A model generated the notes under the pieces. It was not told the origin of the DNA. It did not search any database and saw nothing but the letters and a program-made list of their open reading frames with translations. DNA of 64,000 nt, taken from Tepidicella baoligensis (GTDB taxonomy: Bacteria > Pseudomonadota > Gammaproteobacteria > Burkholderiales > Burkholderiaceae_C). Below, piece by piece: positions 6,733-54,660 of this stretch. A program made the translations under genes and the position numbers. The stretch lies in the NCBI RefSeq assembly GCF_013432195.1, contig NZ_JACCDB010000008.1, positions 62,001 to 126,000 of the forward strand, written 5' to 3'. Every line of letters begins with the position of its first letter. The first letter of the stretch is position 1.

Positions 6733-6742
6733 GCGCCGGGTC

Positions 6743-8142: not shown

Positions 8143-8143
8143 G

Positions 8144-8199: not shown

Positions 8200-8211
8200 G
8201 GGGCAACGGCG

Positions 8212-9583: not shown

Positions 9584-9601
9584 GAGGCGGGTCTGCCTTC
9601 C

Positions 9602-11275: not shown

Positions 11276-11302
11276 GGGCAACGATTTTAGGGGGTCGTGC
11301 GG

Positions 11303-11356: not shown

Positions 11357-11369
11357 ATATGAGATCATC

Positions 11370-13493: not shown

Positions 13494-13556
13494 GGTGTGT
13501 GCTTCTGTGCTTGATCAGCCCCGATGGTATGCGGGCTTCGATGCCCCCACAGGGCT

Positions 13557-14483
13557 TCAGGCGTTGGGGCCAGGGGGCAGCAGCGCCGCCGCCGCGGCGG
13601 CCTTCACCGCCTGGGTGAGCCGCTGGGCGGTGGCCGGTTCCCGTTCCCAGTGGTGCCAGTACAAGGCCACGTCCACGGGAGCGTCCGGCAGCACCTCCAC
13701 GAGCGGTGGGCGCCCCTTGCGCTGCTGCAGATGCAGCTCCGGCACCATGCCCCAGCCCATGCCCAGTTCGATCGCGGTCTCGAACGCGTCGATCGCCGGC
13801 GTGAAGTGGCGTGGATAGCGGGCCTCGCGCAGCTGGAAATACCGGTGCAAAAAAACGTCTTGCAAGGCATCCTTGCGGTTGAAAATGATGGCGGGTCGGC
13901 TCAGTAGCCGGTGTGGCGTGACCCGGCCTGCGGGCGTGCGACACAGCTCGGCCAGGGCGGGCGTGGCCACGCAGCGGTAACGCATGATGCCCAAAGGCTC
14001 GGCCACACAGCCGCGCATGGGCTGGGCGAGCGTGCTGACGCAACCCGTGACCTCACCGCTCTTGAGGGCGTCGTGGGTGTGGTCCTGGTCATCGATGAGG
14101 ATGTCGATCAGCAAGTGATGCCGCTGCACAACGGGCGCGACGCCCGGCAAAAACCAGCTCGCCACCGAGTCGGCGTTGATGGCGACCGACAGACTTTGCC
14201 AGCGTACGCGCGACGTGCCTGCGCTGCCGGGGTCGGCCAGCTGGGCGAGCAGATCGGCCTCCATGAGCTGCACCTGCCGCACGTGCGTGAGCAGCGCCTG
14301 GCCGGCCGGGGTGGCCCGTACCCGCTTGCCCCGCACGAGCAGCCGCTGGCCCAGGGCTTCTTCCAGCGATTTGATGCGCAGCGACACCGCCGCCACCGTG
14401 AGCGACAAAGCCTTGGCGGCGCCGCTGAAGCCGCCTTGTTCCACCACGGCGGCGAGGGCCTCGAGTTGCCTTGCATCCAGCAT
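13557..14483 (-). CDS. argP: LysR-family transcriptional regulator ArgP (LysG/IciA type)
   Basis: Regulator of basic amino acid export. ATG at 14483 gives 308 residues starting MLDARQLEALAAVVEQGGFS; a TTG at 14507 extends it by eight. The N-terminal winged helix (residues 3-60) is followed by the effector domain with the ArgP-type SVAINADSVASWFLPGV. In E. coli ArgP activates argO in response to arginine and lysine, and here the gene is divergent from a LysE/ArgO exporter, the canonical arrangement. A paralogue lies at 33914-34834. Confidence 0.92.
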   Translation of the reverse strand: MLDARQLEALAAVVEQGGFSGAAKALSLTVAAVSLRIKSLEEALGQRLLVRGKRVRATPAGQALLTHVRQVQLMEADLLAQLADPGSAGTSRVRWQSLSVAINADSVASWFLPGVAPVVQRHHLLIDILIDDQDHTHDALKSGEVTGCVSTLAQPMRGCVAEPLGIMRYRCVATPALAELCRTPAGRVTPHRLLSRPAIIFNRKDALQDVFLHRYFQLREARYPRHFTPAIDAFETAIELGMGWGMVPELHLQQRKGRPPLVEVLPDAPVDVALYWHHWEREPATAQRLTQAVKAAAAAALLPPGPNA

Positions 14484-39976: not shown

Positions 39977-40462
39977 ATGCTTCCCCCCACCGCCGACAGT
40001 TTCCGGGCCGCTCTTGGTCGCTTTGCCACCGGCGTGACCATCGTCACCGCCCGGTCCGACAGCGGAGCGCTGGTGGGGCTGACGGCGAACTCCTTCAACT
40101 CGGTGTCGATGTCGCCGCCGCTCGTGCTCTGGAGCCTGTCCAACCAGTCCAGCGCGTTGCCTGTATTCCGCCAAGGCTCGCACTACGCGATCAACGTGCT
40201 CAGCGCCCAGCAGCGCGAACTGGCCCAGCGCTTCGCCGCTCGGGGGGTGGACCGCTGGCAGGGGGTGGCCTATTCCGAAGGGGCTTGTGGGGCCCCGCTG
40301 CTCGACGGGGCCATTGCCACGTTCGAATGCTTCAACCGCAGCTTTTACGAGGAGGGAGACCACGTGATCTTCGTGGGCCAGGTCGAACGCTGCCAGCACC
40401 GCGCAGACGTGCGGCCCCTGCTTTACCACGGGGGACGGTTCTACACGGAGCACCCGCTGTGA
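39977..40462 (+). CDS. Flavin reductase family protein
   Basis: 161-residue FMN-binding reductase of the HpaC/RutF type (split barrel): FRAALGRFATGVTIVTA, GLTANSFNSVSMSPPLVLWSL and HVIFVGQVE. It supplies reduced flavin to a partner monooxygenase, which is not adjacent here. ATG at 39977 lies six bases after a CACAAT hexamer and has no ribosome-binding site. The last four bases overlap the GTG of the EamA gene. Confidence 0.9.
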   Translation: MLPPTADSFRAALGRFATGVTIVTARSDSGALVGLTANSFNSVSMSPPLVLWSLSNQSSALPVFRQGSHYAINVLSAQQRELAQRFAARGVDRWQGVAYSEGACGAPLLDGAIATFECFNRSFYEEGDHVIFVGQVERCQHRADVRPLLYHGGRFYTEHPL

Positions 40463-41358
40463 GCGCCGCGCCGATACGCAAGGACCATCTCGACCGCCTC
40501 GCCATCACGCTGTTGCTGGTGTGCTGCGCGTTCTGGGGATTCCAGCAAATCCTCATCAAAACCACCGTGGCCGAAGTGCCCCCGCTGTGGCAGGCCACGC
40601 TGCGCTTCACGGGGGCCATGGTGTTGCTGTGGATTTGGTGTCAGTGGCGCGGGGTGCCCCTGTTCCAGCGCGACGGCACCCTCAAGGGTGGCCTGCTGGC
40701 TGGATTGTTGTTTGCCGGCGAGTTTGCCTTCATCTATATCGGGTTGCAGTACACCACGGCCTCGCGCTTGACCGTGTTTCTCTACACCTCGCCGTTCGTG
40801 GTGGCGCTGCTGCTGCCGCAGTTCGTGCCCAGCGAAAAGCTGCGTCCGCTGCAATGGCTGGGTTTGCTGGTGGCCTTTGCCTCGGTCGCAGTGGCCTTCA
40901 GCGAGGGCTTTACCCACTCCACCCGCACCCAGCTCATGGGCGACGCCATGGCGCTGGCCGCCGGCATCCTGTGGGGGCTGACCACGCTCGTGATTCGCAC
41001 CACGATGCTGGCCCAGGCCAGCGCCGAGAAAACCCTGTTCTACCAGGTGGCCGTCACGGCCTTGGTGGCGCCGCTGCTGTCGCTGGCGCTGGGCGAAACC
41101 TGGCGTTGGGACTATTCCGGCCTGGCCTGGGGATCGATCGCTCTGCAAACCGTGATCGGGGCTTTCGCCAGCTACCTGACCTGGATGTGGCTGCTGCGCC
41201 ACTACCCGGCCACGCAGATGTCGTCGTTCGTCTTCCTCACCCCGGTGTTCGCCCTGCTGTTCGGGGTTGGGTTGCTGGGCGAGCCGCTGACGCTGGCCCT
41301 GCTGCTCGCCTTGGTGGGCGTGGCCGCCGGCATCGTGTTGGTGAGCCGCAAGCGCTGA
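40459..41358 (+). CDS. DMT-superfamily transporter (EamA)
   Basis: 299-residue inner-membrane protein with ten hydrophobic segments in two EamA repeats, typical of drug/metabolite exporters. GTG at 40459 overlaps the flavin reductase stop (GTGA) and gives SAAPIRKDHLDRLAITLLLV. The internal repeat is visible in the two FAGEFAFIYIGLQYTTASRL and TWMWLLRHYPATQMSSFVF segments, the latter with the conserved SSFVFLTPVFALL. The exported compound is unknown. Confidence 0.9.
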   Translation: MSAAPIRKDHLDRLAITLLLVCCAFWGFQQILIKTTVAEVPPLWQATLRFTGAMVLLWIWCQWRGVPLFQRDGTLKGGLLAGLLFAGEFAFIYIGLQYTTASRLTVFLYTSPFVVALLLPQFVPSEKLRPLQWLGLLVAFASVAVAFSEGFTHSTRTQLMGDAMALAAGILWGLTTLVIRTTMLAQASAEKTLFYQVAVTALVAPLLSLALGETWRWDYSGLAWGSIALQTVIGAFASYLTWMWLLRHYPATQMSSFVFLTPVFALLFGVGLLGEPLTLALLLALVGVAAGIVLVSRKR

Positions 41359-41379
41359 CCAGCCGAGCGGCAGGGCGCG

Positions 41380-42384
41380 TCAACTCCTGCGCGCCAGGCC
41401 CAGGCGCTCAATGGTGGCCTTTTCGGCCGCGAAGGTTCGCTCGGCGTAGGCGGTGTAGTCGGCGGTGTTCATGTAGATGGTAGGCATGTAGAACTTGTCC
41501 AGGGTCTCGAGCACCTTGGGATCGTCCAGTGTCTGTTTGAAGGCGTCATGTAGCACCTGAACGACCGCCGGCGCCATGCCAGCTGGCCCGCCGATGCCGA
41601 AAGGTGATTCGACGATCGTGTCCCAGCCGCTTTCCTTGAGCGTGGGCACGTTGGGGAAGGCCTTGTTGCGCTGGCTGCCCAGGGTGGCCAGCAGGCGCAG
41701 CCTACCGCTTTGGACATGGGGCGCAAATTCGGTGGTGCCGCTCATGACACGGATGTGCCCGCCCAGGATGGCGTTCATGATTTCGGCCGAGCCTTTGAAG
41801 GGGATATGGTTGAGCTGGATACCGGCCTTTGCCGCGAACTCCTCAACGGCCAGGTGCGGCGTGGTGCCGGTGCCGGTGTGGCCGTATTCCAATTGGCCAG
41901 GATTGGCCTTGGCGTAGGCCACGAACTCCTGGATCGTCTTGAATGGCGCGTCGGCGGTGCAGACGATGCCGAAGGTGTAGCCGGTCAGGCAGACGATGTG
42001 GGTCAGGTCTTTCACCGGGTCGAAAGGCATGGGCTGCATGTGTGGCAGCCGGTAAATGCCCAGTGGCAGCTGCGTGATGTTGTAGCCGTCGGGGGAGGCG
42101 TTTTTCATGGCGCTGGCGCCCAGGGTGCCGCCCACGCCAGGGCGGTTTTCCACCATCACCGGCACGCCCAGCACGCGCGCAGCGCTTTCAGCGAAGGCGC
42201 GCATCACCGCGTCGCTGCTACCACCAGCTGGCCACGGGGCAATGAGTGTGATGGGGCGTGACGGGAATTTGGCCTGGGCCTGCGCTGTGCTGGAGAGCCA
42301 GATGGGGGCGGCCAGCGTGGCGCCGGCAGCGGCACTGAGTTGCAGGGCCTGGCGGCGGTTGAGGCGGGAGGGGGAGTGCGTCAT
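41380..42384 (-). CDS. Bug-family tripartite tricarboxylate transporter substrate-binding protein
   Basis: 334-residue periplasmic binding protein of the Bug/TctC family, which is strongly expanded in Burkholderiales. A twin-arginine-like or Sec signal (SRLNRRQALQLSAAAGATLAAP) precedes PSRPITLIAPWPAGGSSDAV and ENRPGVGGTLGA. The matching membrane subunits TctA and TctB are absent, a normal situation for orphan Bug proteins. Ligand unknown; carboxylates are the family norm. CTAGGAGACC precedes the ATG. Confidence 0.9.
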   Translation of the reverse strand: MTHSPSRLNRRQALQLSAAAGATLAAPIWLSSTAQAQAKFPSRPITLIAPWPAGGSSDAVMRAFAESAARVLGVPVMVENRPGVGGTLGASAMKNASPDGYNITQLPLGIYRLPHMQPMPFDPVKDLTHIVCLTGYTFGIVCTADAPFKTIQEFVAYAKANPGQLEYGHTGTGTTPHLAVEEFAAKAGIQLNHIPFKGSAEIMNAILGGHIRVMSGTTEFAPHVQSGRLRLLATLGSQRNKAFPNVPTLKESGWDTIVESPFGIGGPAGMAPAVVQVLHDAFKQTLDDPKVLETLDKFYMPTIYMNTADYTAYAERTFAAEKATIERLGLARRS

Positions 42385-42523
42385 GGTGGTCTCCTAGAGT
42401 TGTGGGCCGATGACTGGCGGCATCAAAAATGGTAAAGGAGCCTCCCGCGCGGCGATGAGGGAAACCCCGCATCCTTCCTCCACAGTGGTCGCCTTGGTGA
42501 CGCTTGGAATGCGGGGGCGGTGC

Positions 42524-44560
42524 TCAGACGCGCACCGCCGCCTGAGCCAGGTGGCGCTGGGCAAAGGCCACATACCAGTCCAGGCAGCCGGGGTTGACCA
42601 TGGCGTCGCGGTTCACCACCTTCTCGACCGGTTGGCCGAGCAGGAGTTTCTTGATTGGCAGTTCCTGCTTTTTGCCGCTCAGGGTGCGCGGAATTTCGGG
42701 CGCCGCCACGATGTCGTCAGGTACGAAGCGTGGCGACAGCGCGCTGCGGATGGCCCCGGCAATGCGCTCGCGCAAGGCGTCGTCCAGCGTCACGCCCGGG
42801 CGCAGCACCACGAACAGGGGCATGTAGCTTTCACGGCCCAGGTACTCCAGGTCCACCACCAGGCTGTCGAGCACCTCGGGCAGGGCCTCCACGGCCGCGT
42901 AGATCTCGCTCGTGCCCATGCGCAGACCGTGGCGGTTGATGGTGGCATCCGACCGGCCGTAGATCACGCAGCCGCCGTCGGCACCGATCTTGAGCCAGTC
43001 GCCATGGCGCCAGACGCCGGGGTACATGTCGAAGTAGCTGGAGAGGTAGCGCTGCTGGCCCGGGTCGTTCCAGAAGTACAGGGGCATGGAGGGGATGGGC
43101 TGCGTGCAGACCAGTTCGCCCACTTCGCCGATCAACGGCTGGCCGTCCTCACCCCAAGCCTCGACCGCGCAACCGAGCTGGCGGCACTGCATCTGGCCCG
43201 GTACCTGGGGCAGTTCACGGTGGCCACCGATGAAGGCGCCGCAGAAGTCGGTGCCGCCGGAGATGTTGCACCACCAGATATTCGGGGTGCCCAGGGCGGC
43301 GAACTGGGCCGAGCCCCAGCGCTGCACGTCTTCGGCCAGCGGCGAACCGGTGCTGCCCAGGGCGCGGATGCGCGTGAGATCGAAGCCTGCGGCTTGCAGG
43401 TTGGGCAAGTCCACGCCGGCCTTCATGCAGTTGGCGTAGTAGGCGGCACCGGCGCCGAAGAAGGTGACCCGGTGCCGGGCCGCGAAACGCCAGAGCACGT
43501 GCCAGTCCGGGTGTTCCTTGCTGCCGCCGGGGCTGCCGTCGTACAGAACGATGGTGGTGCCGCCGGCCAGCCCGGCCACCTGCGCGTTCCACATCACCCA
43601 GCCGGTGGAGCTGTACCAGTGAAAGCGTTCGCCGAAGCTGTTGGGCGCGTAGCTGGGACCGATGTCGTTGTGCAGGATCTTGGCCGCCAGCATGGTCATG
43701 AGGATGCCGCCGTGACCGTGCACGATGGGCTTGGGCAGGCCGGTGGTGCCACTCGAATACACCACCCACAGCGGGTGCTCGAAGGGCAGCCATTCGGGTT
43801 CGAAGGCGGCCGTGGCCGCGTTGTCGCGCTCGGTCAGGGCCTCGAAGTCGGTGGCGCCAGCCACACGTTCGGCGGCATAAGGCGTGCGCAGGGTGATGAG
43901 GTGCTGCACGCTGGGCAGGCCTGCGCGCAGCTCGTTCACGGTGGCGGAGCGGTCCAGCGGCTTGCCCCCGTAGTGCACGCCATCGGCGGCGATCAGCAGC
44001 TTGGGTTCGATCTGGCGGAAGCGGTCGAGCACGGCCGCCGTGCCCATGTCCGGGGCGCACACGCTCCAGATGGCGCCGATGCTGGCGCAGGCCAGGAACG
44101 CCACCACCGTTTCCGGGACGTTGGGCAAGTAAGCGGCGATGCGGTCACCGCGCTGCACGCCCATGTCCTTCATCGCCAGGGCCAGCGAGGCGATCTGCCG
44201 CCGCAGCTGTGGCCAAGTCAGCACGCGCACGCGGCCGCGTTCGTCCTCGCTGATGATGGCGGGCTGGCCAGCCGCATGGGCCGGGGCCGCATGGCGCAGC
44301 ACCTGTTGCGCATAGTTCACCTGGGCCCCGGGAAACCAGTGGACGTTGGGCATCGGGCCCCCCTCGAGCACCGCCGTGTGCGGTGTGGGGGACTGCATCT
44401 GGAAGTAGTCCCAGATGCTTTGCCAGAAGGCAGACAGGTCGGTGGTGGACCAGCGCCACAGCGCGTCGTAGCTGTCGAACGTCAGTCCGCGCTGGTCGCG
44501 CAGCCAGTCCTGATACAGGCGGATCTGTGGGATGTACGGGGGGCGGTCGTTGGCGTTCAT
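42524..44560 (-). CDS. aacS: Acetoacetate--CoA ligase (acetoacetyl-CoA synthetase)
   Basis: 678-residue adenylate-forming enzyme that activates acetoacetate to acetoacetyl-CoA. The N-terminal region YIPQIRLYQDWLRDQRGL and the segment PHTAVLEGGPMPNVHWFPGA are typical of acetoacetyl-CoA synthetases. The P-loop is VYSSGTTGLPKPIVHGHGG and the C-terminal lysine region reads LSGKKQELPIKKLLLG. It is divergent from the TetR-TRAP-cyclase-fahA unit, whose last enzyme releases acetoacetate, so the two transcripts probably serve one route. The 139-base gap downstream holds no gene. Confidence 0.94.
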   Translation of the reverse strand: MNANDRPPYIPQIRLYQDWLRDQRGLTFDSYDALWRWSTTDLSAFWQSIWDYFQMQSPTPHTAVLEGGPMPNVHWFPGAQVNYAQQVLRHAAPAHAAGQPAIISEDERGRVRVLTWPQLRRQIASLALAMKDMGVQRGDRIAAYLPNVPETVVAFLACASIGAIWSVCAPDMGTAAVLDRFRQIEPKLLIAADGVHYGGKPLDRSATVNELRAGLPSVQHLITLRTPYAAERVAGATDFEALTERDNAATAAFEPEWLPFEHPLWVVYSSGTTGLPKPIVHGHGGILMTMLAAKILHNDIGPSYAPNSFGERFHWYSSTGWVMWNAQVAGLAGGTTIVLYDGSPGGSKEHPDWHVLWRFAARHRVTFFGAGAAYYANCMKAGVDLPNLQAAGFDLTRIRALGSTGSPLAEDVQRWGSAQFAALGTPNIWWCNISGGTDFCGAFIGGHRELPQVPGQMQCRQLGCAVEAWGEDGQPLIGEVGELVCTQPIPSMPLYFWNDPGQQRYLSSYFDMYPGVWRHGDWLKIGADGGCVIYGRSDATINRHGLRMGTSEIYAAVEALPEVLDSLVVDLEYLGRESYMPLFVVLRPGVTLDDALRERIAGAIRSALSPRFVPDDIVAAPEIPRTLSGKKQELPIKKLLLGQPVEKVVNRDAMVNPGCLDWYVAFAQRHLAQAAVRV

Positions 44561-44625
44561 GGTCCTCGAGCGTAGCGCATAGGCACTGCGGCAGCTATCG
44601 CCCGCGCGTCAGTGGCCGATCAGGG

Positions 44626-44672
44626 TTTGCACGCATGTTCAAGCGGTTTGGACAGTCGTACAGTATTTGCAC
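44626..44672. promoter_or_regulatory. TTTGCAC direct repeats before the TetR gene
   Basis: TTTGCAC at 44626-44632 recurs at 44666-44672, 40 bases apart and ending next to the ATG. Between them ACAGT is repeated in tandem around CGT. The divergent gap separates aacS from the TetR gene, so a TetR operator is possible, although the repeats are direct, not palindromic. Confidence 0.3.
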
Positions 44673-45365
44673 ATGGAACCAGCCCAGACAGCCCTGTCCG
44701 GCACCCCGCCACGCCGGTCGCGCGCCCAGCGCGCGGCGGCTGGGCGCGAGCGGCCGGACCGCCGCCAAGCCATCCTGCTGGCCGCCGAGCGCCTGTTCGC
44801 ACGCCACGGCTACCACGCGGTCTCGATCCGGCAGATCGCGCAGGAAGCGGGCGTGCCGCTGGCCCTGGTGGGCTACTACTTCGGCCAGAAACACGAGCTT
44901 TTCCACGCCATCTTCGAACACTGGCAGCCCACGGCGCAACGGCGTCTGGAACTGCTGCAACAGGCGCTCGACGACCCTGCCCGGCCGACGCTGGCGCGGG
45001 TGATCGAGGCCTTCGTGCGACCGGTGCTCGCGCAGCGCTCCAGCGCCGAAGGCGAGTACTACGCCCAGCTCGTGGCGCGCGAACTGGCCTTTCAGACGCC
45101 CGAGACGACGCGCGTGCTGGCCGACTACTTCGACCCGCTGGCGCAGCGCTTCATCGACGCGCTGATGGCCGTGCGGCCCGGCCACGACCGTGCCAGCGCA
45201 GCCTGGGCCTACCAGTTCGCGCTCGGCGCGCTGCTGCACCACATCAGCGACTACCGGGTCGAGCGACTGTCCGGCGGCCGCTGCCGCCTGGACGATCCCA
45301 CCGCCGCCGACCGGCTGCTCGCTTTCATCACCGCCGGCATTGCGGCGGTCCTGCCTTCCCGTTAG
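44673..45365 (+). CDS. TetR-family transcriptional regulator
   Basis: 230-residue repressor starting at the ATG at 44673; a TTG two codons earlier is an alternative. The helix-turn-helix is ILLAAERLFARHGYHAVSIRQIAQEAGVPLALVGYYF (shown here in two parts in the protein, residues about 33-70), followed by a TetR_C ligand domain. It lies directly before a TRAP importer, a cyclase and fumarylacetoacetase on the same strand, and divergent from aacS, so it is the likely local regulator. The ligand is presumably the imported compound or an intermediate. Confidence 0.9.
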   Translation: MEPAQTALSGTPPRRSRAQRAAAGRERPDRRQAILLAAERLFARHGYHAVSIRQIAQEAGVPLALVGYYFGQKHELFHAIFEHWQPTAQRRLELLQQALDDPARPTLARVIEAFVRPVLAQRSSAEGEYYAQLVARELAFQTPETTRVLADYFDPLAQRFIDALMAVRPGHDRASAAWAYQFALGALLHHISDYRVERLSGGRCRLDDPTAADRLLAFITAGIAAVLPSR

Positions 45366-45409
45366 TCCCCGCGCCGCCAGAGCGTACCCCAGCACCCCAG
45401 GAGACAACC

Positions 45410-46483
45410 ATGAAGAGACGCCTGTTCCAATCCATCGTGTTCGCCGCCGCGCTTGGCGTCGCGGGGCTGTCCACCGCCCACGCGCAGCAGGTCATCAAGC
45501 TCACGGCCGCTGCGGGGCACCCACCAGTGTTCCTGTGGGTCAAGCTGCTCGACGAGTTCTTCATCCCCGAGGTGGACCGACGCCTCGCCGCCGCCAGCAA
45601 CCGCCACAAGATCGAGTGGACCAAGGCCTGGGGCGGCACCCTGATCAAGCTCGGCAGCGAGTCGCGTGGCATCGCCGATGGCATCGCCGACATGGGCTTC
45701 GTGAGCACGCTATTCGAAGCCCCCCGCTTCCCGATGCAGAACGTAAGCTATGTAACGCCTTTTGGCAGCGACAACCTGGCCGTGGTAAGTGACACCGTGG
45801 CCGAGATGCAGGCGCGTATTCCCGCCATGAACGACGCCTGGGTGCGCAACGGCCTGGTCTATCTGGGCGGTGCGGCGCTCGACAACTACCACCTCTGGAC
45901 CAACTTTCCCGTCAACTCGATCGACGACCTGCGCGGTAAGAAGATCAGCGCGCCCGGCCCATCGGCAAACTGGATCCGCAACACGGGGGCGGTGGCGGTG
46001 GCGGGATCGCTGACCACCTATTATGAGGACATCAAGTCCGGCGTATCCAATGGCGCCATCACCTTCGCCACCGGTGCCTGGGGTGCCAAGCTGCACGAGG
46101 TGGCACCGTACATCACCAAGGTGAGCTTCGGCGCCATGTACGCTGGCGGCGTGGTCATCAACAAGCGCCGCTTCGACGCCCTGCCGCCCGAGGTGCAGCA
46201 GGTGTTCCGCGACGTCGGCGTCGAGTACGCGAAGCGCTTCGCCGCCGCCCAAAGCGCGGCCGCCGACGCGCTGCTCAAACAGATGGAGGCCGCCGGAGCG
46301 AAGATCACCGAACTGTCGCCGTCCGAGCGCAAGCGCTGGGCCGACACCATCCCCAACGTTGCGCAGGCCTGGGCCGACGACCTGCAGTCCAAGGGAGCCC
46401 CGGGCCACGAGGTGCTCAAGGCCTACATGGACGGCCTGAAGAAGAGCGGCGCCAACCTGCCACGCGACTGGTCGGTCCGCTGA
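45410..46483 (+). CDS. TRAP transporter substrate-binding protein DctP-type
   Basis: 357-residue periplasmic binding protein with a clear signal peptide (SIVFAAALGVAGLSTAHA). ATG at 45410 follows AGGAGAC; the longer frame to 44612 overlaps the TetR gene and is spurious. Features: LYLGGAALDNYHLW, DDLRGKKISAPGPSANW, a hallmark segment of the DctP lobe. It feeds the DctQ and DctM subunits directly downstream. Typical ligands are carboxylates; the neighbouring cyclase and FahA suggest an aromatic or cyclic acid. Confidence 0.9.
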   Translation: MKRRLFQSIVFAAALGVAGLSTAHAQQVIKLTAAAGHPPVFLWVKLLDEFFIPEVDRRLAAASNRHKIEWTKAWGGTLIKLGSESRGIADGIADMGFVSTLFEAPRFPMQNVSYVTPFGSDNLAVVSDTVAEMQARIPAMNDAWVRNGLVYLGGAALDNYHLWTNFPVNSIDDLRGKKISAPGPSANWIRNTGAVAVAGSLTTYYEDIKSGVSNGAITFATGAWGAKLHEVAPYITKVSFGAMYAGGVVINKRRFDALPPEVQQVFRDVGVEYAKRFAAAQSAAADALLKQMEAAGAKITELSPSERKRWADTIPNVAQAWADDLQSKGAPGHEVLKAYMDGLKKSGANLPRDWSVR

Positions 46484-46489
46484 ACGCCC

Positions 46490-47089
46490 ATGACCGACCA
46501 CAGCCGTACCACGCCGCCCTCGGCCGCGCACGTGGGGGCAGCGGACGCCTACAACCGCCCGCTGCCCTGGGGCCTGCATTGGCTGGTGCAGGGTCTCAAC
46601 GCGCTTGGCACGCTCTGGATCATTGCGCTCATGCTGCTCATCAATGCCGACATCATCGGTCGCACAGGGTTCAACGCACCGGTGCGCGGGGTGACGGAGC
46701 TGGTCTCGCTGTCCATCGTCGGCATCGTGTTCCTGCAGCTCGCCGACACCCTACGCGCGGGCCGTTTCACGCGCGCCGATGTGATGCTCGACTGGCTCAA
46801 GCGCGAGCACCCGGTAGCAGCGGCCCGCCTGCAGGCGCTATTCCACCTGACGGGCGGCGCGCTGATGCTGGTCATCCTGTGGGCCGCCTGGGGACCACTG
46901 GTGGAATCGGTGCGCATCCGCGAGTACGTGGGTGCACTCGGCGACTTCATGGCGCCGGTTTGGCCGGTGCGCCTGATCATGCTTGTCGGCCTGAGCGTGA
47001 CGGCCCTGACCTTCGTGCTGCTGGCCTTTGACGACCTGCAACGGGCCCGGTGGCTGGCTGGGCGGCGCGCTGGCGGGGGTGACGCATGA
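46490..47089 (+). CDS. TRAP transporter small permease subunit (DctQ)
   Basis: 199-residue membrane protein with four hydrophobic segments and a soluble N-terminus of about 25 residues. Typical DctQ wording: LNALGTLWIIALMLLINADIIGR, VTELVSLSIVGIVFLQLADTLR and the cytoplasmic basic loop. The stop overlaps the DctM ATG by 4 bases. It pairs with the large permease to form the sodium-coupled transporter. Confidence 0.92.
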   Translation: MTDHSRTTPPSAAHVGAADAYNRPLPWGLHWLVQGLNALGTLWIIALMLLINADIIGRTGFNAPVRGVTELVSLSIVGIVFLQLADTLRAGRFTRADVMLDWLKREHPVAAARLQALFHLTGGALMLVILWAAWGPLVESVRIREYVGALGDFMAPVWPVRLIMLVGLSVTALTFVLLAFDDLQRARWLAGRRAGGGDA

Positions 47090-48399
47090 CGCCCACCGCC
47101 GTCGCCCTGCTGTCGCTGGTGTGCATGCTGGGCCTGATTTGGGCCGGGCTGCATGTGGCGGTGGTGCTGGGACTGGTGTCCTTCGTCGGCATCTGGATCA
47201 TCCGTGGTGATGTGGGCATCGCGGCCAACCTGCTGGCGCAGGCGTCGAGCGACGCGATCGCGAGCCACATCTTCGGCGTGGTGCCGCTGTTCGTGCTGAC
47301 GGGCTTCCTCGTGGCCAAGGCCGACATCGGCAAGGACGCGTTCGAGGTCGCCAACCAGCTGTTCCGGCGCCTGCGTGGCGGGCTGGGCATCGCTACCGTG
47401 GCCTCGAACGCGGTGTTCGCGGCCATCACCGGCATTTCCATTGCCTCGGCCGCCGTGTTCACGCGCGTGGCCGTCCCGCAGATGCTGCGCTTCGGCTACC
47501 AGCCGCGTTTCGCCGTCGGGGTGGTTGCGGGTTCGTCGGTGCTGGGCATGTTGATCCCGCCGAGCCTGCTCATGATCCTGTACGGCTTCCTGTCGAACCA
47601 ATCGGTGGGCGACCTGTTCACGGCCGGCATCGTGCCCGGGCTGCTGCTGGCCGGCGCCTTCACGCTGGGCATCGTGCTGATGGCGGCATGGCGCCCTGAA
47701 TGGGTCTGCACCCCCGACCGCGGCCCCGCCGAGGACGGGCCCGACATGGGTTGGGGCACGATGGCGCTCAAGCTGCTGCCCAGCCTGCTGATGATCGGCT
47801 CGGTGCTCGGCGGCCTCTACGCTGGCTTCTTCACCGCCACCGAGGCCGGTGGCGTCGGCGCTGCCATGGCTATTCTCATTGCGCTGGTGCGGCGCAAGCT
47901 CTCGCTGCGCAGCCTGTGGGAGGTGCTCACCGAAACCGGGCACGTCACCGTTGCCGTGAGCTTCCTCATCATCTGCGCGAGTATCTACACACGCATGCTG
48001 GCGATGTCGGGCATGCCGCAGTTCCTGATGGAAACCATCGCGCAGGCCGGCTTGGGTCCGCTCGCTTTCCTGCTGGTGTACGTGGCCATCGTGATCGCGC
48101 TGGGCACGGTGGTGGACTCGTCGTCCATCCTGCTGATCGTACTGCCGCTGATGTTGCCGATTGCCGAGCAGCTCGGCATGAACCTGATCTGGTTCGGCAT
48201 CGTCACCATCGTCGCGGTCGAGATCGGCTTGCTCACGCCACCGTTCGGCCTGTCGGCCTATGTAGTCAAAAGCGCGCTCAACGACCCGCGCGTCTCGCTG
48301 GGCGACATCTTCCGGGGCACCGCGCCCTTCACGCTCATCATGGTGGGGGTACTGCTCCTGCTCATGGTGTTTCCGCAGCTCAGCCTCATGCTGCTCTGA
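47086..48399 (+). CDS. TRAP transporter large permease subunit (DctM)
   Basis: 437-residue permease with twelve to thirteen membrane segments. The TRAP signatures GVVPLFVLTGFLVAKADIG, ITGISIASAAVFTRVAVPQM and MLIPPSLLMILYGFLSNQSV are present. Reading frame overlaps dctQ (ATGA). The soluble loop near residues 195-220 is longer than average. The cyclase gene follows after 18 bases, so transporter and enzymes form one operon. Confidence 0.95.
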   Translation: MTPTAVALLSLVCMLGLIWAGLHVAVVLGLVSFVGIWIIRGDVGIAANLLAQASSDAIASHIFGVVPLFVLTGFLVAKADIGKDAFEVANQLFRRLRGGLGIATVASNAVFAAITGISIASAAVFTRVAVPQMLRFGYQPRFAVGVVAGSSVLGMLIPPSLLMILYGFLSNQSVGDLFTAGIVPGLLLAGAFTLGIVLMAAWRPEWVCTPDRGPAEDGPDMGWGTMALKLLPSLLMIGSVLGGLYAGFFTATEAGGVGAAMAILIALVRRKLSLRSLWEVLTETGHVTVAVSFLIICASIYTRMLAMSGMPQFLMETIAQAGLGPLAFLLVYVAIVIALGTVVDSSSILLIVLPLMLPIAEQLGMNLIWFGIVTIVAVEIGLLTPPFGLSAYVVKSALNDPRVSLGDIFRGTAPFTLIMVGVLLLLMVFPQLSLMLL

Positions 48400-48417
48400 A
48401 CCCCAACGGAGTTCCCC

Positions 48418-49224
48418 ATGACCCGCCGCTTCATCGATTTGTCCATCTACCTCGAAAACGACGTGCTGTCGGACCCGCCGGCCTTCGCGCCGAAGATCCA
48501 GTACATCAACCACGAGCAGAGCTTCGAGCAGATCGCGCCCTTCTTCCCCGGCCTGAAGAAAGAGGATTTGCCCGACGGCGAGGGCTGGGCGGTGGAGCTG
48601 GTACAGCTCAACACCCATAACGGCACCCACCTCGACGCACCCTACCACTACCACAGCACCATGAACCAGGCGCTGGGCAAGAAGGAGCGCGCGATCTCGA
48701 TCGACGAGGTGCCCCTGGAATGGTGCTTCCAGCCCGGCGTCAAGCTTGACTTCCGCCACTTCGACGACGGCTACGTGGTCACGGCCGCCGACGTCGAGGC
48801 CGAACTGCGGCGCATCGGGCACGCGCTGTCGCCACTGGAAATCGTCGTCGTCAACACGCGCGCAGGTTCACGCTACGGCCAGCCCGACTATGTGACCGCG
48901 GGTTGCGGTATGGGTTACGAAGCCACGATGTACCTGCTGGAGCGCGGCGTTCGGCTCACCGGCACCGACGCCTGGAGCTGGGATGCCCCTTTCGTCTACA
49001 CCGCGCGCAAGTACGGGGAAAGCCACGACGCCAGCCTGATATGGGAAGGCCACAAGGCCGGGCGCGACATCGGTTACTGCCATCTCGAAAAGCTCCACAA
49101 CCTGGAGGCCCTGCCCCCCACGGGCTTCTACATCAGCTGCTTCCCGCACAAGATCCGCGGCGCCTCGGCGGGCTGGACGCGGGCCGTGGCGATCTTTGAC
49201 GAAACGCTCATGGCCTCGGCCTGA
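48418..49224 (+). CDS. Cyclase family protein (kynurenine-formamidase-like metal hydrolase)
   Basis: 268-residue member of the cyclase/KynB family of metal-dependent hydrolases. The signature is HNGTHLDAPYHYH, the H-x-G-T-H-x-D-x-P metal site. The family includes arylformamidases, isatin hydrolase and polyketide cyclases. Context (TRAP uptake upstream, fumarylacetoacetase downstream) suggests hydrolysis or ring opening of an imported cyclic or aromatic-derived compound. The N-terminal block IDLSIYLENDVLSDPP is typical of the wider family. Substrate unknown. Confidence 0.88.
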   Translation: MTRRFIDLSIYLENDVLSDPPAFAPKIQYINHEQSFEQIAPFFPGLKKEDLPDGEGWAVELVQLNTHNGTHLDAPYHYHSTMNQALGKKERAISIDEVPLEWCFQPGVKLDFRHFDDGYVVTAADVEAELRRIGHALSPLEIVVVNTRAGSRYGQPDYVTAGCGMGYEATMYLLERGVRLTGTDAWSWDAPFVYTARKYGESHDASLIWEGHKAGRDIGYCHLEKLHNLEALPPTGFYISCFPHKIRGASAGWTRAVAIFDETLMASA

Positions 49225-49237
49225 AGGAACACGCCCC

Positions 49238-50557
49238 ATGCTGGACCACACGCACGAGCCTGCCGCGCGCAGCTGGCTCGACACCGCCAACTCCCCGGGA
49301 ACCGACTTTCCCGTGCAAAACCTGCCGTTCGCGGTGTTTCGTCGCCGCGGCACCGCCGAGGGCTTTCGCGGCGGCGTCGCCATTGGCGACCAAGTGCTTG
49401 ACCTGGCGGCGCTGGCGGCCGATCGCCCGTTCGATGGCCTCGCCGCCGAGGCATTGGGTGCGGCGGCCGGCGATACCCTCAATGACCTTATGGCGCTCGG
49501 CCCGCCCGCCTGGCGCGCACTGCGCTACGCCCTGTTCGCCCTGCTCGGCTCAGGTGCCAGCGAAACGTCGGTGCGTGCCGCTCGCGGCGCTCTCGTTCCC
49601 ATGAACAGCGTCGAGTACGCGCTGCCCGCGCGCATCGGCAACTACACCGATTTCTACACATCCATCCACCACGCACGCAACGTCGGGCGCGTGATCCGGC
49701 CCGACGACCCGCTCACACCCAACTTCCAGTGGATGCCCATCGCCTACCATGGCCGCGCCTCCAGCGTGGTCGTCAGCGGCACGCCGTTTCGCCGGCCGAT
49801 GGGGCAGGCAATGGCACCCGGGGCTTCCGCTCCGTTCTACGGCCCGTGCCGGCAGCTCGATTACGAGCTGGAGCTCGGTTTCTACATCGGGCCTGGCAAC
49901 GCGCTGGGCGAGCCCGTTCCGATCTCGCAGGCGCGCGACCACATCTTTGGCATGTGTCTGCTCAACGACTGGTCGGCACGCGACCACCAGTTCTGGGAGA
50001 TGGCGCCGCTCGGCCCGTTTCTGGGCAAGAACTTCTGCACCAGCGTATCGCCCTGGGTGGTGACGCTGGATGCGCTCGCCCCCTACCGCGTGCCGTTCGA
50101 GCGCCCGGCCGGCGACCCGCAGCCGCTCGGCTACCTCGACGATCCGGCCGAGCGCGCCGACGGCGGGCTCGACATCGCGCTGGAGGTCTGGCTTGAATCG
50201 GCCGCCCACCGCGCGCGCGGTCTGGCACCGCACCGCCTATCGGCGACGAGCTTTCGCCACCAGTACTGGACCATCGCCCAGATGCTCGCGCAGCACACCG
50301 TGGGCGGCTGCAACCTGCAACCCGGTGATCTGCTCGGCACCGGCACCATTTCGGGCCCGACGGCGCCCGAAGCGGGGGCCATCGTCGAACTCAGCCTGGG
50401 CGGCACCCGTGCCATCGAGCTCTCCAGCACCGGCGAGACACGTACCTTCCTGGAGGACGGCGACAGCGTCATCCTGCGCGGCTGGTGCGAGCGGCCCGGG
50501 GCGGCGCGCATCGGCTTTGGCGAATGCCGTGGCACGGTGCTCCCCGCTATGGCCTGA
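49238..50557 (+). CDS. fahA: Fumarylacetoacetase
   Basis: Hydrolyses fumarylacetoacetate to fumarate and acetoacetate, the last step of the homogentisate (tyrosine/phenylalanine) route. The ATG at 49238, after AAGGA, gives 439 residues with an N-terminal FAH_N domain (about 25-130) and a catalytic domain with NYTDFYTSIHHARNVGRVI, NDWSARDHQFWE, FLGKNFCTSVSPWV and a C-terminal GTGTISGPT motif. Homogentisate dioxygenase and maleylacetoacetate isomerase are absent here. The product acetoacetate links it to the divergent aacS. Confidence 0.95.
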   Translation: MLDHTHEPAARSWLDTANSPGTDFPVQNLPFAVFRRRGTAEGFRGGVAIGDQVLDLAALAADRPFDGLAAEALGAAAGDTLNDLMALGPPAWRALRYALFALLGSGASETSVRAARGALVPMNSVEYALPARIGNYTDFYTSIHHARNVGRVIRPDDPLTPNFQWMPIAYHGRASSVVVSGTPFRRPMGQAMAPGASAPFYGPCRQLDYELELGFYIGPGNALGEPVPISQARDHIFGMCLLNDWSARDHQFWEMAPLGPFLGKNFCTSVSPWVVTLDALAPYRVPFERPAGDPQPLGYLDDPAERADGGLDIALEVWLESAAHRARGLAPHRLSATSFRHQYWTIAQMLAQHTVGGCNLQPGDLLGTGTISGPTAPEAGAIVELSLGGTRAIELSSTGETRTFLEDGDSVILRGWCERPGAARIGFGECRGTVLPAMA

Positions 50558-50687
50558 AGTCTCCTGCCCGGGGTACACCCTTTGCAAGCGCGGCAGGCGC
50601 TGGGCCTATCACATCGGCGTCAATCCTGACACGAAACTTGCCGTTCGGGCACAATCGCGCCATTTCACATTGAGGAGTGAGGTTCCC

Positions 50688-51968
50688 ATGTTCCAATGGA
50701 CGGAGAAAAGCCCGGCGGCCCTGCAGGCCGGCGGCGTCATCGGCCCCGACGAGCGCCTGCCCTGGGGTCAGACCACGGTGATGGGCGTGCAGCACCTGAT
50801 CGCGATGTTCGGCGCCACGGTCCTGGCTCCGCTGCTCATGGGGTTCGATCCCAACGTGGCGGTGCTGATGAGCGGCATCGGCACGCTCATTTTCTTTGTC
50901 ATGACCGGCGGCAAGGTGCCGAGCTACCTCGGCTCCAGCTTTGCCTTCATCGGGGTGGTGATCGCGGCGAGCGGCTACGCCGGGCCGGGCCCCAACGTCA
51001 ATATCGGGGTGGCGCTGGGCGGCATCGTGGCCTGCGGCTTGCTCTACTTCATCATCGGGGCCATCGTGCATGTGGCGGGCACAGGCTGGATCGAGCGCTT
51101 CATGCCACCGGTGGTCACCGGCTCGGTGGTGGCCGTCATCGGCCTGCACCTGGCCTACATCCCCATCAAGAACATGTCGCCCACGGCGTTCGATGCCTGG
51201 ATGCAGGCCATCACCTTCGTGAGCGTGGCACTGGTGGCGGTGTTCACCCGGGGCATGGTGCAGCGCCTGCTCATCCTCATGGGCCTGATCGTGGCCAGCG
51301 TCATCTACGCCGTGCTCACCAACGGCCTGGGCCTGGGCCAGCCGATCGACCTCAGCGGCGTGGCCAGTGCCGCCTGGATCGGTATGCCCAACTTCAGTAC
51401 CCCGGTGTTCGAGGCCAACGCCATGCTGCTGATCGCACCGGTGGCCGTCATCCTGGTGGCGGAGAACCTGGGCCACATCAAGGCCGTGACCGCCATGACT
51501 GGGAAGAACCTAGACGTGTACATGGGCCGCGCCTTCATGGGCGATGGCGTGGCCACCATGGTGGCTGGCGGTGTGGGCGGTACGGGCGTGACCACCTATG
51601 CCGAGAACATCGGCGTCATGGCCGCGACCAAGATCTATTCGACAGCCGTCTTCGTGATCGCGGCACTGATGGCCATTCTGCTCGGCTTCAGCCCCAAGTT
51701 CGGTGCGGTGATCCAGGCCATTCCGCTGGCCGTGATGGGTGGGGTCTCGATCGTGGTGTTCGGTCTGATCGCCATTGCCGGCGCCAAGATCTGGGTCGAC
51801 AACAAGGTGGACTTTTCCGACAACAAAAACCTGATCGTGGCCGCCATCACGCTGGTGCTGGGCACCGGGGATTTCACCCTGAAGTTCGCTGGTTTCGAGC
51901 TGGGCGGCATCGGGACGGCCACCTTCGGCGCCATCCTCCTGTACGCCCTGCTCAACCGTACGCGCTGA
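50688..51968 (+). CDS. NCS2-family nucleobase:cation symporter (uracil-xanthine permease)
   Basis: 426-residue inner-membrane symporter. ATG at 50688 follows GAGGAGTGAGG; the frame from 50070 overlaps fahA. NCS2 motifs: GVQHLIAMFGATVLAPLLMG, SYLGSSFAFIGVV, the Q/E motif region AENLGHIKAVTAM and GGTGVTTYAENIGVMAATK. UraA- or RutG-type uracil uptake is most likely; xanthine is an alternative. It has its own upstream promoter-like region and a terminator downstream, and no catabolic partner here. Confidence 0.92.
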   Translation: MFQWTEKSPAALQAGGVIGPDERLPWGQTTVMGVQHLIAMFGATVLAPLLMGFDPNVAVLMSGIGTLIFFVMTGGKVPSYLGSSFAFIGVVIAASGYAGPGPNVNIGVALGGIVACGLLYFIIGAIVHVAGTGWIERFMPPVVTGSVVAVIGLHLAYIPIKNMSPTAFDAWMQAITFVSVALVAVFTRGMVQRLLILMGLIVASVIYAVLTNGLGLGQPIDLSGVASAAWIGMPNFSTPVFEANAMLLIAPVAVILVAENLGHIKAVTAMTGKNLDVYMGRAFMGDGVATMVAGGVGGTGVTTYAENIGVMAATKIYSTAVFVIAALMAILLGFSPKFGAVIQAIPLAVMGGVSIVVFGLIAIAGAKIWVDNKVDFSDNKNLIVAAITLVLGTGDFTLKFAGFELGGIGTATFGAILLYALLNRTR

Positions 51969-51987
51969 TCTGGCGCGCGTCACACCC

Positions 51988-52024
51988 AGGCCTGCTCGCC
52001 CACCGGGCCGGCAGGCCTTTGTTG
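51988..52024 (+). terminator. Terminator after the NCS2 permease gene
   Basis: AGGCCTGC (51988-51995) pairs with 52011-52018, enclosing a GC-rich 15-base loop with its own short stem, followed by TTGTTGT. It lies 20 bases after the stop codon. Confidence 0.6.
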
Positions 52025-52034
52025 TAGCCTCGTC

Positions 52035-52046
52035 AGGGTAAACCCG
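52035..52046. promoter_or_regulatory. AGGGTAAACCCG dyad motif, copy 2
   Basis: Exact second copy of the motif at 32013-32024, about 87 bases before the DJ-1 gene ATG. The 164-base gap contains no gene. Confidence 0.35.
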
Positions 52047-52132
52047 CTGCGCCGCAATAACCGGCTATTACCTCTTGTGCCACCCGTCCGCCAACAATCA
52101 AGGCCCGACCCACGTTATCCAAGGAGACTCCC

Positions 52133-52711
52133 ATGGGCAAGAGGCTGTTGATGATTTGCGGCGACTACTGCGAAGACTACGAAACCATGGTGCCCTTCCA
52201 GGCACTGCAGGCCGTTGGCCACACGGTGCACGCGGTGGCGCCCGACAAGAAAGCTGGCGACTGGATTCATACAGCCATTCACGACTTCGAGGGCGCCCAG
52301 ACTTACAGCGAGAAGCCGGGTCACCGCTTCACGCTCAACGCCAGCTTCGCCGACGTGAAGCCCGAGAACTACGACGCGCTGGTGATCCCCGGCGGGCGCG
52401 GCCCCGAATACCTGCGCATGCACGCCAGCGTGGTGGCCATGGTCAAGCACTTCACGGGCAGCGGCAAACCCGTGGCGGCCATCTGCCACGGCGCCCAGCT
52501 GCTCGCCGCCACGGGCGATATCAAAGGCCGCACCATCGCGGCTTATCCGGCCTGCCAGGTGGAAGTGGAACTGGCCGGTGCCACCTACGCGCCCATTGCG
52601 GTGGACCAGGCGGTCACCGACGGGCCTTTCGTCACCGCACCAGCGTGGCCGGCGCACCCGGTGTGGATCGCGCAGTTCCTGGAGGTGCTGGGCACCCGCA
52701 TCAGCCACTGA
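52133..52711 (+). CDS. DJ-1/PfpI family protein
   Basis: 192-residue class I glutamine-amidotransferase-like protein. The catalytic Cys lies in the nucleophile elbow [13 protein letters not shown], and [15 protein letters not shown] gives the usual glycine-rich loop with its conserved Glu partner region. Such proteins act as proteases, glyoxalases or chaperones; the type here is not decidable from sequence. CAAGGAGACTCCC precedes the ATG. It stands alone with its own control region. Confidence 0.88.
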
Positions 52712-52771
52712 TGCCAAAAACCGCCCGGACGGCGCACAATGCGCACTGGATCACCGTGCAGGAGTGTCGTC

Positions 52772-53194
52772 ATGTGTGAAATCTTCATCAGTGCCGATCC
52801 CGACAGCTACGCCAGCCGCACCCGCTCGGTGCGGTTGCATGGCGTGGTCACCAGCATCCGGCTGGAGAATCTCTACTGGGATGTGCTGGCCGAAATCGGC
52901 GAGCGCGACGGCATGACCGTGGTGCAGCTGATCGAGAAGCTGTACGACGAACTGGTTGCTGTGCGTGGTGTGGTGGGCAACTTTGCGTCCTTCCTTCGGG
53001 TGAGCGCCCTGCGGTACATGGCCTTGCAGGCACATGACCGCATCCCCATGGACAAGGCCGTACCCATCCGCTCGCTCGACGCCCGAGCCGTCTTGCAGGC
53101 GCTGCCGTCACACTGGGCACTGACCCCTTCGGGGGTCCGGCACCACGGAGATGCCGGACCAGCAGCTGATCAGGCGATCTTCACGTACTCGTAG
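52772..53194 (+). CDS. Ribbon-helix-helix domain protein
   Basis: 140-residue protein; ATG at 52772 lies after GCAGGAGTG, and the frame upstream overlaps the DJ-1 3' region. Residues about 20-85 (RTRSVRLHGVVTSIRLENLYWDVLAEIGERDGMTVVQLIEKLYDE in pieces) form an RHH_4-type DNA-binding domain, of the single-domain regulator family with unknown targets. The last 25 bases overlap the 3' end of boxB on the opposite strand. Control of nearby genes is possible but unsupported. Confidence 0.82.
   Translation: MCEIFISADPDSYASRTRSVRLHGVVTSIRLENLYWDVLAEIGERDGMTVVQLIEKLYDELVAVRGVVGNFASFLRVSALRYMALQAHDRIPMDKAVPIRSLDARAVLQALPSHWALTPSGVRHHGDAGPAADQAIFTYS
53122..53160. terminator. Paired hairpins between the RHH gene tail and boxB
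   Basis: GACCCC-TTCG-GGGGTC (53122-53137, a UUCG-type tetraloop) and a nine-bp stem (53134-53142 with 53152-53160) overlap and so are mutually exclusive. They lie inside the RHH 3' coding end and just after the boxB stop. No T run, so they may act as an mRNA 3' stabiliser instead. Confidence 0.35.
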
Positions 53195-54660
53195 TCCACC
53201 GGCTGCTGGTTGATGCCCATGCGGGGCGGGGCGATCCAGCTGGCGTATTCTCCGGGCCGGTGGCAGGGCTGCATCAGCGAGTGGATGAAGGCGTTGTCCG
53301 CGTCGTTCGGCAGCCATTCGCCTTGACCGGCCTGCCATTCGGCTTCGGTCAGCAGGCGGCCGTCCGGGCTGATGCGGTGGCCGGCGAATTCCCCGATGCG
53401 GCGGTTGAACCCCTTGTGCGGCTGAACGAAGCGGAAGTCGATGCCGAACTTCTCGATCGTCTTGTTCCAGCGGTCGATGCCGCCCTGACAGTCGGCGATG
53501 TAGTCGTCCAGCAGGCGGCTGTTGATGGCGCGCAGCGCGGGTACGTCTTCGGTCACGATGCGGCCGTCCACCACCCGCATCACGGGGTAGGTGTCGTTCT
53601 GCAGCTGGTGGTCGTCTTTCAGGTTGGCTTCGTTGAAACGTCCCTTGAGTCCGGCGCTGAAGGCTTCGGCGGCGTTGGACGAAATCTCTGAGCCGAACAG
53701 GTCGCGCGTCACGCTCATGTGGAAGTTGGCCTTGCGCTGCAGCAGCGGCAGGTCCACCACGCCCAGCTTGCGGATGGCTTCGGTGTCGTATGGGTCGGTG
53801 ATGCCGGCCTTGACCATGGCGGCGCAGGTGGCCTCCACCGTGCGGCCTACGCCGGTCTCGCCCACGAACAGGTGGTGCGCCTCTTCCGTCAGCATGAAGC
53901 GGCAGCTGCGGCTCAACGGGTCGAAGCCGCTCTCGGCCAACGCGGCCAGTTGCATCTTGCCGTCGCGGTCGGTGAAGTAGGTGAACATGAAGAAGCTCAA
54001 CCAGTCGGGCGTGCGCTCGTTGAAGGCGCCCAGGATGCGCGGGTTGTCCTGCTGGCCGCTGCGGCGCTCCAGCAGGGCCTGCGCTTCCTCGCGCCCGTCC
54101 TTGCCGAAGTACTTGACGAGCAAATACACCATGGCCCACAGGTGGCGGCCTTCCTCCACGTTCACCTGAAACAGGTTGCGCATGTCGTACAGGCTGGGCG
54201 CGGTTTTGCCCAGGTAGCGTTGCTGCTCCACGGAGGCGGGCTCCGTGTCGGCCTGGATGACGATGAGGCGACGCAGCAGTGAGCGGTATTCGCCCGGCAC
54301 CTCCTGCCAGACGGGCTCGCCCTTGTGGCGGCCGCAGGGAATGGTGCGGCCCTCCACCTTGGGCGCCAGCAGGATGCCCCAGCGGTATTCGGGCATTTTC
54401 ACGTAGCCGAATTTGGCCCAACCCGCCGGGTCCACGCCCACGGCGGTGCGCAGGTACACGTCGGCCTCCTGGAAGCCGTCGGGCCCCATGTCCTTCCACC
54501 AGTCCAGGTAACGGGGGTGCCAACTCTCCAGCGCCTTGAGCAGCTGCCGGTCCGAAGACAGGTCCACGTTGTTGGGGATGGCGTCGTCGTAGTTGACCTC
54601 GACGAAGCGGTCGTTGCTCACGGACTCGGGGGTTTCGATCAGTGTGTCTTCCTGGCTCAT
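53170..54660 (-). CDS. boxB: Benzoyl-CoA 2,3-epoxidase subunit BoxB
   Basis: Di-iron oxygenase component that epoxidises benzoyl-CoA in the aerobic box pathway. ATG at 54660 gives 496 residues; an ATG nine codons upstream is an alternative. The di-iron ligands are seen in VNVEEGRHLWAM and LTEEAHHLFVGETG, and the C-terminal half keeps the family wording. Its usual partners boxA (reductase) and boxC (hydrolase) and the benzoate-CoA ligase are not in this window, so this is a lone copy. An FNR-like site lies 84 bases upstream of the start. Confidence 0.94.
   Translation of the reverse strand: MSQEDTLIETPESVSNDRFVEVNYDDAIPNNVDLSSDRQLLKALESWHPRYLDWWKDMGPDGFQEADVYLRTAVGVDPAGWAKFGYVKMPEYRWGILLAPKVEGRTIPCGRHKGEPVWQEVPGEYRSLLRRLIVIQADTEPASVEQQRYLGKTAPSLYDMRNLFQVNVEEGRHLWAMVYLLVKYFGKDGREEAQALLERRSGQQDNPRILGAFNERTPDWLSFFMFTYFTDRDGKMQLAALAESGFDPLSRSCRFMLTEEAHHLFVGETGVGRTVEATCAAMVKAGITDPYDTEAIRKLGVVDLPLLQRKANFHMSVTRDLFGSEISSNAAEAFSAGLKGRFNEANLKDDHQLQNDTYPVMRVVDGRIVTEDVPALRAINSRLLDDYIADCQGGIDRWNKTIEKFGIDFRFVQPHKGFNRRIGEFAGHRISPDGRLLTEAEWQAGQGEWLPNDADNAFIHSLMQPCHRPGEYASWIAPPRMGINQQPVDYEYVKIA

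Follow-up and report, generated by a model that had tools for sequence, protein, structure and literature searches.

Several described catabolic pathways resemble parts of a gene cluster found in Tepidicella baoligensis (GCF_013432195.1), on a 64,000-nucleotide stretch of DNA (NZ_JACCDB010000008.1, positions 62,001 to 126,000) that is here called the window. The cluster comprises genes for a TetR-family regulator, a TRAP importer, a cyclase-family hydrolase, and a fumarylacetoacetase (FahA), which lie divergent from a gene for an acetoacetate-CoA ligase (AacS). One point of comparison, drawn by description, is the anaerobic phloroglucinol pathway of Clostridium scatologenes (PGR, DPGC, TfD, TAL). 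According to the available part of that account, a cyclase-family enzyme opens the cyclic diketone dihydrophloroglucinol by a retro-Claisen reaction, a BKACE splits triacetate with acetyl-CoA to give acetoacetate units, and the cluster includes a transporter and a regulator (PMC10470551). The window carries FahA and AacS instead of a BKACE, its genome is Comamonadaceae-type, and its importers are of the solute-binding-protein kind. Furthermore, its operon contains no reductase or hydroxy-acid dehydrogenase; neither phloroglucinol reductase nor TfD was seen in the operon in general profile searches, and a genome-wide search was not made.

Other routes to acetoacetate share different features with this locus. 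The tyrosine/homogentisate pathway (HgmA-MaiA-FahA) also releases acetoacetate with a FahA-family C-C hydrolase, whereas the window combines a changed FahA pocket with its own importer, regulator, and cyclase in a genome without an HgmA match. Flavonoid and isoflavone A-ring clusters (ifc) recall certain relatives of this locus, in which VOC, FAD oxidoreductase, and hydrolase genes accompany an FAA hydrolase and, next to it, a cyclase of 73-77% identity. However, the window operon has no oxygenase, and the available part of the ifc account does not mention a cyclase (PMC11069340). In the deoxyribonate pathway a lactonase and a BKACE yield acetoacetate, much as might be expected of the lactonase- and BKACE-containing variants described below, but that pathway uses a dehydrogenase and a glycerate kinase, and the part of its description at hand mentions neither cyclase nor FahA (PMC6365646). 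Riboflavin breakdown, which likewise ends in acetoacetate, was set apart by description, as its pyrone opener is a different, cobalt-dependent hydrolase and the portion available does not mention a cyclase (PMC12746152). A description of the TetR-TRAP-cyclase-fahA/aacS set was not found in the open-license literature. The unit combines known enzyme families in a new arrangement, likely for a new substrate, and does not constitute a new kind of system.

On balance, the unit probably represents a TetR-controlled cassette for catabolism of an imported small cyclic compound, in which ring opening would be followed by FahA cleavage of a 3,5-dioxo acid and activation of the product by AacS. The TRAP system would import an enol-lactone or a cyclic 1,3-diketone, and the PF04199 hydrolase would open the ring by metal-dependent hydrolysis. 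The product would be a linear 3,5-dioxo acid, for which triacetate (3,5-dioxohexanoate) or a closely similar compound is the most likely candidate. The FahA variant would then hydrolyze a C-C bond to release acetoacetate together with another acid, which in the case of triacetate would be acetate, and AacS, encoded divergently from the same intergenic region, would form acetoacetyl-CoA for thiolysis. TetR would act on a tandem palindrome to repress both transcripts as long as no pathway ligand is present. Candidate substrates that would fit are triacetic acid lactone and cyclic 1,3-diketones; a search by title of the open-license literature found no bacterial gene set for triacetic acid lactone catabolism. 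Since the substrate is assigned by inference, the findings described below support this reading rather than prove the pathway.

The sequence-only reading that first drew attention to the locus had named TetR, a TRAP importer, the cyclase, and fahA divergent from aacS, and profile searches confirmed every one of these genes at the correct positions (Table 1). The plus-strand run tetR-dctP-dctQ-dctM-cyclase-fahA spans 44673-50557 with intergenic spacings of 44, 6, -4, 18, and 13 bp. According to the list of open reading frames and the profile searches, all genes of the unit are open and each matches its family, including the three components of a complete TRAP importer (DctP, DctQ, and DctM). 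The aacS gene is the only one above the TIGR01217 cut-off among 17 AacS-model matches in the genome, an assembly of 2.87 Mb in 47 contigs whose completeness is listed as 100%.

Conservation of the arrangement was evaluated in a sample of 299 genomes of the family (Comamonadaceae-type), 60 of which hold a cyclase match at a threshold of E <= 1e-40. A FahA lies less than 3 kb away at no fewer than 31 of the 47 places where the cyclase is at least 80% identical, a count based on the 66 best-scoring FahA places and including several misses at contig ends. The neighborhood is thus kept in relatives, and well beyond chance. The gene set is accessory, as the cyclase is unmatched at this threshold in the two other sampled genomes of the genus. 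A second scan provided named loci (L numbers), which are the top 80 out of 592 or more related stretches; tallies were made on the 62 with enough flank, with the 18 short-flank loci excluded. Among the 39 loci with a cyclase of at least 80% identity, FahA is found at 25, AacS at 15, TetR at 21, TRAP at 9, an ABC system at 19, a smaller FAA hydrolase at 2, a BKACE at 2 (L069 also has FahA), and an SMP-30 lactonase at 8.

The FahA variant itself differs from its relatives in a manner that bears on its substrate. It scores above the fumarylacetoacetase cut-off, has both the N- and C-terminal FAA domains (PF09298 and PF01557), and keeps D126, H133, E199, E201, D233, K253, and E364 of mouse FAH, which we take to be catalytic or metal residues. 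Comparison was made among 91 different FahAs, of which 65 are cyclase-linked and 26 are unlinked (16 HgmA-linked, 4 FAD-monooxygenase-linked, and 6 other). Eleven active-site residues (D126, H133, Y159, E199, E201, D233, R237, Q240, K253, T350, and E364 in mouse numbering) are invariant in all 65 linked proteins. At positions 244 and 142, where Tyr and Arg presumably contact the substrate, the groups diverge: Tyr244 is present in 26/26 unlinked FahAs versus 1/65 linked ones, and Arg142 in 26/26 versus 33/65. All 59 FahAs beside cyclases of at least 78% identity carry Met at position 244, or Leu in one case, and the residue is Ser or Ala in five linked FahAs that are more distant. On a tree of 84 rows, from which rows more than 93% identical to a kept row had been removed, Tyr was exchanged for another residue, or the reverse, at least three times. 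At positions 152, 244, and 322 the window protein has F, M, and Q, while HgmA-linked FahAs have Y152 (16/16), Y244 (16/16), and A322 (15/16). In a search of FahA papers for the role of Tyr244, a single pertinent passage turned up, which places the Y244-F249 loop at the fumarylacetoacetase active site (PMC7916972). In our reading the change at Tyr244 may have removed the binding site for the fumaryl carboxylate.

A second line of evidence comes from loci at which the cleaving enzyme appears to have been exchanged. Seven cyclase loci hold a BKACE, and six of these proteins score 464-552 bits on NF053538 ('3,5-dioxohexanoate:acetyl-CoA acetone transferase'), for which the cut-off is 430. On a Chelatococcus plasmid (L150) the order is TetR-TRAP-cyclase-BKACE-lactonase, and in a Rhodoferax metagenome-assembled genome (L056) it is TetR-TRAP-lactonase-cyclase-BKACE with the same palindrome as in the window, in a locus otherwise like the FahA cassettes. 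In both, BKACE follows the cyclase in the place of FahA. As far as the accessible part of the report goes, BKACE15 of Paracoccus accepts 3,5-dioxohexanoate (PMC11961710). By analogy, FahA and the NF053538-type BKACEs would share a 3,5-dioxo acid substrate. The window genome itself has no NF053538 match at E <= 1e-100. FahA cleavage is predicted to give free acetoacetate, which AacS can activate, and AacS is present at 13 of the 25 FahA loci in the set with cyclases of at least 80% identity versus none of the seven BKACE loci. This contrast is not used as proof, because the numbers are too small and the flanks uneven (only 1.8 kb upstream at L034).

Fumarylacetoacetase also acts on 3,5-dioxo acids other than fumarylacetoacetate. 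The proposal that FahA here uses such a different acid gains support from the changed pocket together with the 3,5-dioxohexanoate-type BKACEs near the cyclases of relatives, as far as sequence comparison can indicate. Of the products first proposed, fumarate and acetoacetate, the latter is retained, and fumarate is improbable as the second product.

The intergenic region between aacS and tetR contains two palindromes of the form TTGNAC-N4-GTNCAA, spaced 21 bp apart, which align between the window and 15 relatives, whether the importer is TRAP or ABC (L055 and L135, with gaps of more than 400 bp, were omitted). When one mismatch is allowed, the tandem pattern has sites in 30 of the 299 genomes and occurs once in the window genome, only here. 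Twenty-seven of the 30 sites are 0.7-5.6 kb upstream of the cyclase; the exceptions are genome G216, which has no cyclase match, G200, whose cyclase is on another contig, and G266, whose site is at a contig end. The pattern read backwards, used as a control, gave no site among the controls listed. With two mismatches, 35 of 117 sources had a site, the BKACE variant L056 among them and some sources being copies of one locus; three shuffles gave none. The conserved tandem palindrome in the shared region, to which TetR is predicted to bind, supports the earlier suggestion that aacS is functionally linked to the operon. Scans for promoters and terminators gave signal at or near shuffle level, and an Rfam scan of window positions 40000-53000 gave no match.

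Upstream of the cyclase, relatives carry either a TRAP system or an ABC system of four genes with a binding protein that matches NMT1/SsuA-like families, and none of the 39 loci with a cyclase of at least 80% identity carries both. Other relatives have a TctC or MFS protein, or a porin in one tested case. A quick cyclase tree of 38 rows with TRAP or ABC systems implies at least five importer switches, although the starred branches alone force fewer. Exchange of importers around a constant cyclase-FahA pair points to uptake of something on which the cyclase acts as the task of the operon. The expectation of a complete TRAP importer with an imported substrate stands, with the refinement that TRAP is one among several exchangeable importers. 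An NCS2 symporter gene, which also follows fahA in the window, has homologs within 3.0 kb after 5 of 43 FahA genes (4.5-kb downstream flank), and together with the NMT1-like binding proteins this hints at a small planar ring as substrate. Beyond aacS, on the same strand, is a gene for a TctC-type solute-binding protein (window 41380-42384), whose homologs of 74-80% identity adjoin aacS in L047, L051, and L052.

Several observations weigh against this assignment. No FahA, FAA hydrolase, or BKACE is nearby at 11 of the 39 loci with a cyclase of at least 80% identity, and among the 23 loci at 70-80% the partner is FahA at 3, FAA hydrolase at 2, BKACE at 2, and none at 16. These tallies make the full cassette a subset within a larger, highly conserved cyclase family, and with so many close cyclases lacking a cleaving partner, the enzyme may have another or a broader role. 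The pocket argument is likewise imperfect: the window FahA has Met244 yet retains Arg142, a FahA linked to a 56% identical cyclase (L131) retains Tyr244, and the pocket differences also follow clade membership, which accounts for them in part. The seventh cyclase-linked BKACE (L034) scores 247 bits, under the NF053538 cut-off, which is passed in 42 of the 299 family genomes without any of the places listed being within 10 kb of a close cyclase. The AlphaFold model of the cyclase (mean pLDDT 66) is too poor to use. In addition, the palindrome pattern was drawn from loci that partly overlap the genomes searched, and thus its genome-wide rarity is the informative part.

Alternative explanations must also be considered, and the most conventional would be that FahA is an ordinary fumarylacetoacetase of tyrosine breakdown with incidental neighbors. 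Beyond the score of the protein on the fumarylacetoacetase model, this is favored by the presence of HPPD and of two MaiA-model matches above cut-off in the genome, but the latter are on other contigs. Homogentisate dioxygenase (PF04209, C-terminal domain model), which matches in 117 of the 299 family genomes, has no match in the entire assembly. Thus, the earlier remarks that neither this dioxygenase nor maleylacetoacetate isomerase is nearby are upheld, the former in stronger form, and the check for complete hmgA and maiA genes beside the unit came out negative. The same genome also encodes a second FahA (64% identical, contig C34) with the unlinked pocket pattern Y152, Y244, and A322. Given these facts, Met244, and the conserved linkage of fahA to the cyclase, importer, and TetR palindrome, this explanation is very improbable. 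Ordinary tyrosine catabolism is rejected as the principal explanation on account of the unmatched HgmA, the changed pocket, and the cassette linkage, and the suggestion that FahA might function outside tyrosine breakdown is strengthened. The second FahA is in a set of its own (C34 positions 5238-14072; L114) with an FAD monooxygenase (NF006002 above cut-off), a VOC protein, an MBL-fold protein, and a TRAP system, which is kept in L195, L196, and L197, whose genomes likewise have no HgmA match. As the genome also has HPPD, the L114 set may be part of a homogentisate route without HgmA.

Two other explanations concern the chemistry of the ring and of the acid it yields. The cyclase has the HxxxHxD motif, presumably the metal motif of PF04199 cyclases, and its H67, H71, and D73 are invariant in 30 sequences (L097, L098, L103, and L106 omitted). 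Its only PDB sequence matches are three isatin hydrolases, and these are weak (E 2e-5). They would be consistent with an amidohydrolase of the formamidase or isatin-hydrolase type that serves degradation of an N-heterocycle, with FahA and AacS acting later on a skeleton other than triacetate, and the SsuA/NMT1-like ABC importers and the NCS2 symporter suggest a small planar ring that could be a heterocycle. Nevertheless, the arylformamidase model TIGR03035 gives 25.8 bits against a cut-off of 223.05, by which KynB identity is rejected, profile searches of the window revealed no ammonia- or formate-handling gene in the operon, and the BKACE variants suggest a simple beta-keto acid; we regard the N-heterocycle as improbable. 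It also seems unlikely that the same logic applies to a dioxo acid larger than triacetate, such as a 3,5-dioxo acid that bears an acyl or aryl group and derives from part of a polyketide or flavonoid. Cyclases of 73-77% identity do occur in clusters with FAD oxidoreductase, VOC, and alpha/beta hydrolase genes (which we take, from annotation and recall, to be fde/ifc relatives), and some cassettes are accompanied by CocE/NonD-type hydrolases and an acyl-CoA synthetase. However, the FAA hydrolase of these aromatic clusters is mostly of another, smaller type, and six of the seven linked BKACEs belong to the 3,5-dioxohexanoate family. Within the preferred reading of a cassette for a lactone or diketone, it is tentatively conceivable but doubtful that triacetic acid lactone, or even phloroglucinol as its keto tautomer (cyclohexane-1,3,5-trione), is degraded by hydrolysis alone; there, the cyclase would give triacetate directly, no reduction or oxygenation being needed, and the re-tuned FahA would give acetate and acetoacetate.

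Table 1. Features of the cassette and its surroundings, in window positions
Feature	Position	Strand	Basis
aacS, acetoacetate--CoA ligase	42524-44560	-	TIGR01217, 705.2 bits vs cut-off 520.9
First palindrome, tandem operator-like site (TTGNAC-N4-GTNCAA type)	44627-44642		Pattern alignment
Second palindrome, 21 bp downstream of first	44648-44663		Pattern alignment
tetR, TetR-family regulator (TetR_C_30 type)	44673-45365, ATG at 44673	+	PF00440, PF17939
dctP, TRAP solute-binding protein	45410-46483	+	PF03480
dctQ, TRAP small permease	46490-47089	+	PF04290
dctM, TRAP large permease	47086-48399	+	PF06808; TIGR00786 above cut-off
PF04199 cyclase-family hydrolase, proposed ring opener	48418-49224	+	PF04199, 120.9 bits vs 23.1
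fahA variant, Met at mouse Tyr244 position, proposed 3,5-dioxo-acid hydrolase	49238-50557	+	TIGR01266, 529 bits vs 375
NCS2 nucleobase-type symporter, possibly associated	50688-51968	+	TIGR00801, 346 bits vs cut-off 292

Some features of the wider neighborhood were recorded in addition. A boxB gene of the benzoyl-CoA pathway (window 53170-54660) is a few kilobases from the cassette, as it is in 6 of the 80 named loci (L035, whose copy is above the BoxB cut-off, L036, L037, L038, L040, and L050); this proximity might reflect either regional synteny or a functional link. An SMP-30/gluconolactonase-family gene, which the window does not have, recurs in cassettes and is often immediately upstream of the cyclase (L045, L051, L055, L056, L058, L064, L065, L068, L107, L121, L122, L127, L135, where it matches PF08450, and L150). 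Some cyclases of 76-80% identity are solitary, with no cassette gene near (L074, L086, L089, L091-L094, L106, and L110), and these are from Polynucleobacter, Reyranella, and Halieaceae-type genomes.

If the proposed function is correct, annotation of a fahA gene as part of the tyrosine pathway would often be misleading, and a Met244 FahA beside a cyclase would be a marker of a pathway that handles carbon from diketones or lactones. The result would also provide a function for a PF04199 subfamily that is highly conserved and at present bears only the label 'cyclase family protein', and would mean that one carbon skeleton is cleaved either by hydrolysis (FahA with AacS) or with acetyl-CoA (BKACE) in otherwise matching cassettes. 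Should the purely hydrolytic route hold, it would parallel the clostridial phloroglucinol route but bypass the reductase and the dehydrogenase of the latter. In that case the Burkholderiales and some other Proteobacteria would carry a modular cassette in which both the importer and the cleaving enzyme are exchangeable.

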